From positions 1-44,430 of the forward strand of contig JAEINW010000019.1 in assembly GCA_016342715.1 (NCBI GenBank): DNA of 44,430 nucleotides, written 5' to 3'. Positions within the stretch are counted from its first letter, which is position 1. Each line of letters begins with the position of its first letter. This document shows positions 3,360-14,061 of the stretch, in pieces. The notes below the pieces were generated by a model. It had not been told where the DNA came from. It did not search any database and saw only the letters and a program-made list of their open reading frames with translations. The position numbers were made by a program, and so were the translations under genes. Source of the DNA: Salinivirgaceae bacterium (lineage in GTDB: Bacteria > Bacteroidota > Bacteroidia > Bacteroidales > SZUA-534).

Positions 3360-4913
3360 ATGGAAAAAGAAATTACGCTTGTTTTATCACCAAAGCAAGC
3401 TTCAAGTACGGCTTTATACACCCCTTTAATTGCAAACAAATTAAAAGTTTCGCTAAAACAAATTAGCTATACTAAAGTAATTAATCGGTCGATTGATGCC
3501 AGAGGACGAAATGTAAAAATAAATTTGAAACTATTAGTTTGCATTGATTCACCTCCTAAGGAAAAAGGAAAAATAAATATAAAATATAAAAACGTAAAGA
3601 ATTCAGAACCGGTGCTTATTATTGGAGCTGGTCCTGCTGGTTTATTTGCAGCTTTAAAGCTCTTAGAAATTGGATTAAAACCCATTATTATTGAACGTGG
3701 GAAAGATGTTATTTCACGAAAACGTGATATTGCTGATATTCATAAAAATAAGGCGTTGAATCCAGATTCTAATTATGCTTTTGGTGAGGGTGGTGCTGGT
3801 ACATTTTCTGATGGAAAGCTTTATACGCGCTCAAAAAAAAGGGGCAGTAATAAAAATGTATTAAATGTTTTAACGCAACATGGAGCATCCGAGGATATTT
3901 TAATTGATGCACATCCTCATATTGGATCGGATAAATTGCCGGGTATTATTAAATCGATACGAGAAAGCATAATTGAATATGGTGGTGAGATTCATTTTAA
4001 TACCTGTTTGAAATCTTTACTAATTGAATCGAATTCAATTAAGGGAATTGTAACAAAGAATAACGAAAAAATTGAATCGCGAGCAGTTATTCTTGCCACA
4101 GGCCATTCGGCACGTGATGTTTATTTCATGTTGAATGAATTGGGAATAATGCTTGAGGCCAAATCTTTTGCAATGGGAGTTCGAATAGAACATCCTCAAG
4201 AGTTAATTGATTCCATTCAATATTCTTGCGATTTCAGAGGACCTTATTTGCCAGCAGCTTCGTATGGCTTGGTTCAACAAGTAAAAGAAAGAGGCGTATA
4301 TTCTTTTTGTATGTGCCCTGGAGGTATCATTGTTCCAGCTTCAACCGCAGCTGATGAGATGGTGGTAAATGGAATGTCACCATCGAACAGAAACACACGC
4401 TGGGCAAATTCAGGAATTGTTGTTGAAATAAGACCAGAGGATATAAAAAATGTTAATATAAATGCTTTAATAGGATTAGATTATCAACAGAAATTTGAGA
4501 AGTTAGCCTTTGCAAATGGGGGTGAAGGACAAATTGCTCCTGCACAAAACATGGTTGATTTTGTTGAGGGTAGAATTTCAAATAAATTAGCAGAAAGCTC
4601 TTTTCGTCCTTCCATTCAAACTTCTGCAATGCATGAATGGATTCCTGAGCAAATTCGATTCAGATTGCAAGAAGGTTTTAAAGCTTTTGGCAAAAAAATG
4701 AAAGGGTATTACACAAATGAAGCAACTTTAATTGGAGTTGAAAGTAGAACAAGTTCACCGGTTCGTATTCCACGAGACAGAGAAACTATGCAGCATCCTC
4801 AAATAAAAGGATTGTTTCCTAGTGGCGAAGGTTCAGGATATGCCGGAGGAATTACTTCATCGGCAATTGATGGTGAAAATACAGCAGTTAAGGTTGATGA
4901 ATATTTGAAATAA
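3360..4913 (+). CDS. NAD(P)/FAD-dependent oxidoreductase (COG2509-type)
   Basis: A 517-residue flavoprotein of the uncharacterised FAD-dependent dehydrogenase family. The dinucleotide-binding motif GAGPAG is at residues 89-94, followed about 20 residues later by an acidic strand end (IIIERG). It is preceded by an N-terminal domain of about 80 residues typical of this family. A second FAD contact, GLFPSGEGSGYAGG, lies near the C-terminus. The substrate is unknown. It lies 10 bases after porT and probably belongs to the menG-porT operon. Soluble and cytoplasmic; no signal peptide. Confidence 0.85.
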   Translation: MEKEITLVLSPKQASSTALYTPLIANKLKVSLKQISYTKVINRSIDARGRNVKINLKLLVCIDSPPKEKGKINIKYKNVKNSEPVLIIGAGPAGLFAALKLLEIGLKPIIIERGKDVISRKRDIADIHKNKALNPDSNYAFGEGGAGTFSDGKLYTRSKKRGSNKNVLNVLTQHGASEDILIDAHPHIGSDKLPGIIKSIRESIIEYGGEIHFNTCLKSLLIESNSIKGIVTKNNEKIESRAVILATGHSARDVYFMLNELGIMLEAKSFAMGVRIEHPQELIDSIQYSCDFRGPYLPAASYGLVQQVKERGVYSFCMCPGGIIVPASTAADEMVVNGMSPSNRNTRWANSGIVVEIRPEDIKNVNINALIGLDYQQKFEKLAFANGGEGQIAPAQNMVDFVEGRISNKLAESSFRPSIQTSAMHEWIPEQIRFRLQEGFKAFGKKMKGYYTNEATLIGVESRTSSPVRIPRDRETMQHPQIKGLFPSGEGSGYAGGITSSAIDGENTAVKVDEYLK

Positions 4914-12543: not shown

Positions 12544-12574
12544 TTTGTTAATATATGTCAATGTTCTAAATTTG
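12544..12574 (+). promoter_or_regulatory. rpsU operon promoter (textbook Bacteroidota)
   Basis: TTTG at 12544-12547, a spacer of exactly 19 bases, then TAAATTTG at 12567-12574. This matches the consensus TTTG-N19-TAnnTTTG perfectly and lies 36 bases before the rpsU ATG. Confidence 0.8.
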
Positions 12575-12610: not shown

Positions 12611-12808
12611 ATGATAGTTATACCAGTAAAAGAAGGCGAAAATATTGATAGAGCTTTAAAGAAGTTTAAGAGGAAGTTTGAAAAAACTGGCGTTATAAAA
12701 GAGTTAAGAGCCAGACAGGTTTATAGAAAACCTTCAGTAACGAATCGCGAACAAAGAATTAAAGCTGCTTATATTCAACAGCTGCAAAACGAAGAGCAAG
12801 CACAATAG
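12611..12808 (+). CDS. rpsU: 30S ribosomal protein bS21
   Basis: A 65-residue, strongly basic protein with the bS21 pattern: VKEGENIDRALKKFKRKFEKTG, then ELRARQVYRKPS. It binds the 30S platform next to the 3' end of 16S rRNA. In Flavobacterium bS21 with bS18 and bS6 sequesters the anti-Shine-Dalgarno tail. The leader upstream of this ATG has no purine-rich SD sequence, which is notable because rpsU in many relatives has an unusually strong one. First gene of rpsU-xerC-hpf, driven by the promoter at 12544. Confidence 0.94.
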   Translation: MIVIPVKEGENIDRALKKFKRKFEKTGVIKELRARQVYRKPSVTNREQRIKAAYIQQLQNEEQAQ

Positions 12809-12861: not shown

Positions 12862-13740
12862 ATGTATATAGATGCTTTTGTCCGATATATAACCAATGAG
12901 AAAAGGTACTCAAAGCATACCATTCGCTCCTATAAAAGTGATTTAGAGCAGTTTGTAGAGTTTGTATATGCCGAAGATATTCAATTTAATCCGCTTACGA
13001 TTGATCATCACATCATACGTAAGTGGATTATTCATTTAATGGAATCGGGCACTTCGGCTCGCTCGGTAAATCGAAAAATCACCACCTTAAAATCATTCTT
13101 CCGATTCCTCCTTAGAGAAGGGCATATTGATTGTTTACCAACCGATAAAGTAGTTTTGCCAAAAATGAGCAAAAATTTACCTTATTTTTTAAGTAAGAAA
13201 TCAATGGATCAATTATTCGATCAGATTTCATTTACAAATGACTTTGAAGGAGTTCGTGATAGAAGCATTTTGCTTTTATTTTATTGCACAGGAATGCGTC
13301 AAAGTGAATTAACAAATTTAAAAATAGGAGATATTGATTTAAATGCTGGTTCACTTAAAGTATTAGGAAAAAGAAATAAAGAAAGATTAATTCCGTTTGG
13401 AATAGAACTAAAAGAGCAAATAATTACATATATTAATATACGAGAAACTTTAAATTGTGATCACAATTGGTTAATTGTTACAAATGAAGGTAACCCAATT
13501 TATGACAGATTGGTTTACACTATAGTTAATAAACATTTAAGCTTGATTACAACTTTAGAGAAGAAAAGTCCGCATATATTGCGTCATACTTTTGCTACTC
13601 AAATGTTAAATAATGGAGCCGATATAAATGCAATTAAAGAACTTTTGGGTCATGCGAATTTGTCAGCAACTCAGATATACACGCATACCACGTTTGAAAA
13701 ATTGAAAAGCATATATAAACAAGCTCATCCAAGGGCTTAA
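12862..13740 (+). CDS. xerC: Tyrosine recombinase, XerC/XerD family
   Basis: A 292-residue site-specific recombinase of the size of the chromosome-dimer-resolving Xer proteins. It has an N-terminal SAM-like core-binding domain (about 1-90) and a C-terminal catalytic domain with all expected residues: Arg146 (GMRQSEL), Lys170, His238 and Arg241 (HILRH), His264 (LLGH) and nucleophile Tyr273 (QIYTHT). Its place between rpsU and hpf in a housekeeping operon argues for a chromosomal Xer role rather than an integrase of a mobile element. Whether it is XerC or XerD cannot be settled here. Confidence 0.87.
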   Translation: MYIDAFVRYITNEKRYSKHTIRSYKSDLEQFVEFVYAEDIQFNPLTIDHHIIRKWIIHLMESGTSARSVNRKITTLKSFFRFLLREGHIDCLPTDKVVLPKMSKNLPYFLSKKSMDQLFDQISFTNDFEGVRDRSILLLFYCTGMRQSELTNLKIGDIDLNAGSLKVLGKRNKERLIPFGIELKEQIITYINIRETLNCDHNWLIVTNEGNPIYDRLVYTIVNKHLSLITTLEKKSPHILRHTFATQMLNNGADINAIKELLGHANLSATQIYTHTTFEKLKSIYKQAHPRA

Positions 13741-13749
13741 TAAAAAAAC

Positions 13750-13761
13750 AGGAGGTAAATT
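13750..13761 (+). promoter_or_regulatory. Canonical Shine-Dalgarno AGGAGGT before hpf
   Basis: AGGAGGT at 13750-13756 ends five bases before the hpf ATG at 13762, with near-ideal complementarity to the 16S tail CACCTCCT. It is the only strong SD seen among the genes of this window. The other starts are preceded by A/T-rich sequence, as usual for the phylum. Confidence 0.85.
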
Positions 13762-14061
13762 ATGGATATAAAAATTCAATCATTGAGATTTGATGCAGAT
13801 GGAAAGTTATTAGACTTTGTTGAAAACAAAGTAAGTAAACTTGATCAGTTTCATGATAATATTATTGGAGCCGAAGTTACTTTGCGTTTGGATAAATCTG
13901 AAAGTTCTGAAAATAAAGTGGCAGATATTAAAGTGTTAATTCCTGGAAGTGATTTATTTTCAAAAAAACAAGCTAAAACTTTTGAGGAGGCAACCGATTT
14001 AGCCACTGAAGCTTTAAGAAAGCAGTTGAAAAGGACAAAAGAAAAGCTTAAAAATAAATAG
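13762..14061 (+). CDS. hpf: Ribosome hibernation promoting factor (short HPF/RaiA type)
   Basis: A 99-residue protein of the HPF/RaiA (S30AE) family, which binds the decoding region of idle ribosomes. The family pattern is clear: an N-terminal strand MDIKIQSLRFDADGKL, a helix with LDQFHDNI, central strands and a basic C-terminal helix (EALRKQLKRTKEKLKNK). The long-HPF dimerisation tail is absent, so it is the short form. Third gene of the rpsU operon, 21 bases after xerC, with its own strong SD. An intrinsic terminator follows at 14084. Confidence 0.93.
   Translation: MDIKIQSLRFDADGKLLDFVENKVSKLDQFHDNIIGAEVTLRLDKSESSENKVADIKVLIPGSDLFSKKQAKTFEEATDLATEALRKQLKRTKEKLKNK

Follow-up and report, generated by a model that had tools for sequence, protein, structure and literature searches.

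Ribosomes of Bacteroidia are reported to be blind to Shine-Dalgarno (SD) sequences, the tail of their 16S rRNA being hidden in a pocket of bS21, bS18, and bS6 (PMC9976891). In Flavobacterium johnsoniae, a tuf reporter carrying AGGAGGU showed no rise in the wild type, increased more than 2-fold upon bS21 truncation, by 70% with the Y54A substitution, and by 40 to 70% in a bS21 depletion strain, and AGGA in the same reporter had no effect (PMC9976891). Autoregulation of rpsU by its product bS21 was linked to extended SDs with pairing energies below -13 kcal/mol, typically near -20 kcal/mol (PMC9976891). SDs preceding rpsR, the gene of bS18, were described in Bacteroidales, Cytophagales, and Sphingobacteriales by Jha et al. 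(2021), as cited in PMC9976891, and the accessible parts of the published screens, which covered whole genomes in Flavobacteriales, name rpsU, rpsR, and several ribosomal protein genes as SD bearing (PMC9976891). For Escherichia coli, it was reported that bS21 is degraded in stationary phase and that about 25% of the 70S ribosomes lack it after 12 days (PMC9601097).

Here, we analyzed a window of 44,430 nucleotides from a 5.5-Mb metagenome-assembled genome of a member of the Salinivirgaceae (Bacteroidales), in which a strong SD precedes the gene of a ribosome hibernation factor. Three genes, rpsU, a xerC-type tyrosine recombinase gene, and hpf, follow each other on the forward strand with short gaps between them. 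The 65-amino-acid bS21 encoded by rpsU (12611 to 12808) matches the Ribosomal_S21 profile. The xerC-type gene (12862 to 13740) ends with a stop codon 21 bases upstream of the hpf ATG. The hpf gene (13762 to 14061) encodes a protein of 99 amino acids (Pfam S30AE, 6.6e-19; NCBIfam yfiA/HPF, 1.1e-12), which represents the short form of HPF, since PF02482 spans residues 3 to 97 and the C-terminal domain of the long form is absent. The start codon of hpf is correctly assigned, because Met1 is invariant across 21 aligned homologues. A perfect match to a Bacteroidota-type promoter, TTTG-N19-TAAATTTG (also recorded as TTTG-N19-TANNTTTG), is located on the forward strand at 12544 to 12574, 36 bases upstream of rpsU. 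About two such matches are expected by chance in the window, and thus this placement is suggestive only. Together with the absence of a TTTG-type match from the xerC-hpf gap in a pattern scan of the window, it suggests that rpsU, xerC, and hpf share one messenger.

The hpf SD, AGGAGGT, occupies positions 13750 to 13756 and is separated by the 5-nt spacer AAATT from the ATG at 13762 to 13764 (13740 to 13764, ataaaaaaacAGGAGGTaaattATG). It is predicted to form 7 bp with A1534 to U1540 of the 16S rRNA at -11.7 kcal/mol, at a spacing within 4 to 9 nt of the start codon, the tail having been taken from a genome of the same family. The rpsU leader, tttggatgttaaaaaataaacaatATG, lacks GGAG and pairs at -3.9 kcal/mol, and pairing in the nine other window leaders tested was -5.2 kcal/mol or weaker. 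All these energies were computed against the tail ACACCUCCUUUCU. Thus, a sequence-only reading of this DNA, which had claimed a strong and well-spaced SD on hpf and none on rpsU, described this locus correctly. In folding of the hpf leader the SD was mostly unpaired (0.6 to 0.96 per base), and no hairpin sequestering it was found. The leader also carries A at -3 and at -12, making SD-free initiation possible. Another occurrence of AGGAGGTN followed by ATG in the window (3542 to 3557, minus strand) was rejected, being antisense within another gene.

The same reading had asked for the 16S 3' end to be confirmed. It is canonical in the same-family genome, where it reads GGAACACCTCCTTTCT (written GGAACACCTCCTTTCTGGAG in a second record), and no 16S gene was found when the assembly of the window itself was searched. 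An initial search pattern, GGATCACC, gave only a spurious match, as the Bacteroidota tail reads GGAACACC.

The general neglect of SDs that had been claimed for Bacteroidota was confirmed in this genome. AGGAGGTN3-9ATG matched 70 times versus 65 times for a reversed control pattern, indicating no global SD use. About 9 of the 70 matches look like real gene starts. Besides hpf, they include genes for an ECF sigma factor, a DUF3987 protein, a cytidylate-kinase-like protein, and two Rnf-type subunits; the few others are unidentified. The two Rnf-type genes, encoding an FMN-binding and a membrane subunit, are adjacent to each other, and both AGGAGGT motifs are well spaced (L163:2343-3571, genome contig C317). 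Among 549 gene starts, sampled by simple open reading frame calling from about 0.78 Mb of the genome's contigs, the SD window gave 30 matches at -6 kcal/mol versus 38 in a mock window, and only 3 starts paired at or below -11 kcal/mol. With so few starts pairing as strongly, hpf ranks among roughly the top half percent in this SD-blind genome.

With respect to the pocket in which the 16S tail is hidden, the bS21 of the window aligns colinearly with its F. johnsoniae counterpart and contains the pocket residue Tyr54, which was found in 123 of 124 SD-bearing loci. For bS18 and bS6, compared at the level of whole chains, the best PDB matches were 9i5v and 7jil, the latter being the F. johnsoniae ribosome, over nearly the full length.

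The sequence-only reading had named lack of conservation of the SD in relatives as one refutation of its idea, and the SD proved to be widely conserved. In pooled distinct Bacteroidales hpf leaders, pairing at -9 kcal/mol or better was detected in 107 of 123, versus 2 of 123 in the mock window, with a median of -12.2 kcal/mol and most values between -10 and -14 kcal/mol. GGAGG was present in 95 of the 123 leaders, at 4 to 8 nt from the ATG in 94 of these 95, with variable flanks around it. Neither the upstream flank nor the first 45 nt of hpf contained GGAGG. In named Bacteroidales loci, 63 of 77 hpf leaders contained GGAGG and 71 of 77 paired at -9 kcal/mol or better. The corresponding GGAGG counts were 0/80 for rpsU, 0/79 for xerC, 0/63 for tuf, 0/56 each for secE, rplK, and rplJ, 0/50 for rplL, and 1/56 for rplA. 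In the secE-rpoB region, nusG is an exception, with GGAGG in 8 of 57 leaders (L062 to L141). Since 24 of 80 rpsU leaders paired at -9 kcal/mol or better, many of them through the AAAGGAG of Marinifilum relatives, the absence of an SD from rpsU is usual but not universal beyond this genome. Several Marinifilum loci (L091, L095 to L097, L100, and L110) combine AAAGGAG before rpsU with GGAGG on hpf.

In a class-wide draw of 49 families, the hpf SD was nearly all-or-none by family and present in 16, two of them belonging to Bacteroidales; about one-third of the families outside this order had it and about two-thirds did not. On a tree of 186 rows its state changed 19 times, versus 52 times when shuffled, indicating that the hpf SD is inherited. 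Two families (f60 and f66) possess the hpf SD together with an extended rpsU SD, and another (f74) has an rpsU SD of about -20 kcal/mol and none on hpf. An association between the hpf SD and the extended rpsU SD was not detectable on this tree, which offers few informative pairs. Within the Salinivirgaceae, part of a single rumen genus (L006, L008, L009, L010, and L012) has lost the hpf SD and kept the rpsR SD, and close relatives retain the hpf SD.

We regard as best supported, and hold with moderate confidence as a joint proposition, that AGGAGGT is a genuine SD kept on hpf by selection and that bS21-poor ribosomes use it to raise HPF. This preference is based on the pocket, the conservation of Tyr54, the response of the AGGAGGU reporter, and the loss of bS21 in E. 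coli taken together. In intact ribosomes the tail would lie in the bS21-bS18-bS6 pocket, and hpf would be translated at a basal rate from its A-rich leader. Ribosomes lacking bS21, or with a tail freed otherwise, could arise by unfinished assembly or by loss in stationary phase; they would pair with the hpf SD and translate hpf faster, and ribosome incompleteness would thereby yield more hibernation factor. Thus, incomplete or ageing ribosomes with an exposed tail may preferentially make HPF, and we infer that hpf of this organism responds to bS21 loss and that this is of consequence during starvation. It is tempting to go further and to speculate, somewhat more tentatively, that in Bacteroidales without an rpsU SD the anti-SD switch is wired to hpf, with bS21-less ribosomes selectively translating hpf from the rpsU-xerC-hpf messenger and ribosome state triggering hibernation without a transcription factor or alarmone.

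The link between bS21 and hpf proposed from the sequence alone is thus upheld in part. The SD-blind genome, the canonical anti-SD of the family, the retained Tyr54, the SD-free rpsU, and the wide conservation of the hpf SD speak for it. Its weaker side includes a pairing energy of -11.7 kcal/mol that falls short of the -13 kcal/mol threshold of rpsU-type SDs, as computed with an energy program different from the published one, the losses in rumen Salinivirgaceae, the lack of a detectable tree association with the extended rpsU SD, the two-thirds of non-Bacteroidales families without the motif, and the possibility of SD-free initiation. The SDs of rpsR and hpf, moreover, do not always occur together.

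Rather unlikely, in our estimation, is a constitutive helper function, by which normal Bacteroidales ribosomes partly use the hpf SD for start-site choice or for termination-reinitiation after the xerC stop, so that it sets the HPF level and senses nothing. The arrangement of the junction is compatible with this, as the SD lies within the 21-nt gap after the xerC stop, 68 of 75 rows with gaps of 15 to 25 nt have an SD, and the rpsR SDs likewise lie within the end of rpsF, where the junction is tight. However, other short-gap operon genes (rplK, rplA, and rplJ) do without an SD, and in one genus (L013 to L016) the hpf SD is retained although the gap measures 94 or 213 nt. It also occurs where no ribosome terminates ahead of hpf: three in-frame XerC-HPF fusions were seen, two of which (L359 and L365) keep GGAGG and an internal ATG within the coding sequence, and the third (L388) has neither SD nor stop. 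The RaiA-labelled 401-residue chain 14 of the Bacteroidota-type ribosome 9i5v is such a fusion, too. A pattern designed for such fused junctions returned no matches across the phylum, being too specific. As judged from these gene arrangements, the hpf SD is not merely a product of coupling to xerC. The published SD-blindness of Bacteroidia and the inertness of AGGAGGU in wild-type F. johnsoniae (PMC9976891) further argue against use of the hpf SD by normal ribosomes.

We consider it improbable that the loss sensed by the hpf SD is that of bS18 or of the entire pocket, not that of bS21; hpf would then belong in one set with rpsR and be tied to bS18 supply. The rpsR SDs of Salinivirgaceae are indeed similar in strength (-9.2 kcal/mol here and mostly -12.6 kcal/mol in relatives), and such SDs are reported for Bacteroidales (PMC9976891). 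Nevertheless, genomes were found with one SD but not the other, in both directions (L019/L205, L029/L202, and L026/L207), and the literature we searched yielded no bS18 experiment on this point. Even less probable is that the hpf SD is an unused relic of an SD-using ancestor. The rumen genus lost it without obvious compensation, as a relic might be lost, but other genes at the same loci have almost completely lost theirs, and an unused 5-base motif should decay between families rather than stay intact at fixed spacing between variable flanks. That GGAGG is some other signal, such as a protein or RNase site, is scarcely credible, as no point in its favor was found, it keeps a constant position with respect to the ATG rather than the xerC stop, and the next base, a T in 55 of 95 leaders, extends the pairing to A1534.

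Responsiveness of a genuine hpf SD to bS21-poor ribosomes, our preferred reading, has one of its closest precedents in rpsU autoregulation of F. johnsoniae (McNutt et al. 2023, PMC9976891). Common to both are a conspicuous SD in an SD-blind genome, the canonical tail, and the bS21 pocket residue, and it was in F. johnsoniae that AGGAGGU responded to bS21. In contrast to that system, rpsU itself lacks the SD here and hpf carries it, pairing amounts to 7 bp and -11.7 kcal/mol instead of 9 to 13 bp and -14 to -21 kcal/mol, and the result would be hibernation rather than replenishment of bS21. The rpsR SDs resemble the hpf SD in occurring in the same order, in their energy range (-7 to -14 kcal/mol), and in a ribosome-tied product; bS18, however, is a pocket protein and suited to feedback, whereas HPF inactivates ribosomes and is not part of the pocket. 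Stationary-phase loss of bS21 in E. coli (PMC9601097) illustrates a natural source of bS21-less ribosomes at a time when hibernation is needed. Unlike the present genome, E. coli uses SDs widely, and a selection of hpf mRNA through this loss is therefore not known.

The published screens, in their accessible parts, do not mention hpf, and our search found no literature on an hpf SD in Bacteroidota, although Jha et al. (2021) may mention one; the known SD/anti-SD switch thus apparently has a new target here, and a new output as well. The hpf SD could help explain why Bacteroidales keep the pocket together with a canonical anti-SD left unused by most of their genes. The existence of specialised bacterial ribosomes is debated, and the clear reported case, the bS21-less ribosomes of Flavobacterium, was described as controlling rpsU alone. 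A strong hpf SD across an SD-blind order offers a second target, which is easy to test and has an evident physiological meaning. If the proposed mechanism holds true, it would add a second example of specialised ribosomes in bacteria, one whose physiological output goes beyond self-supply.
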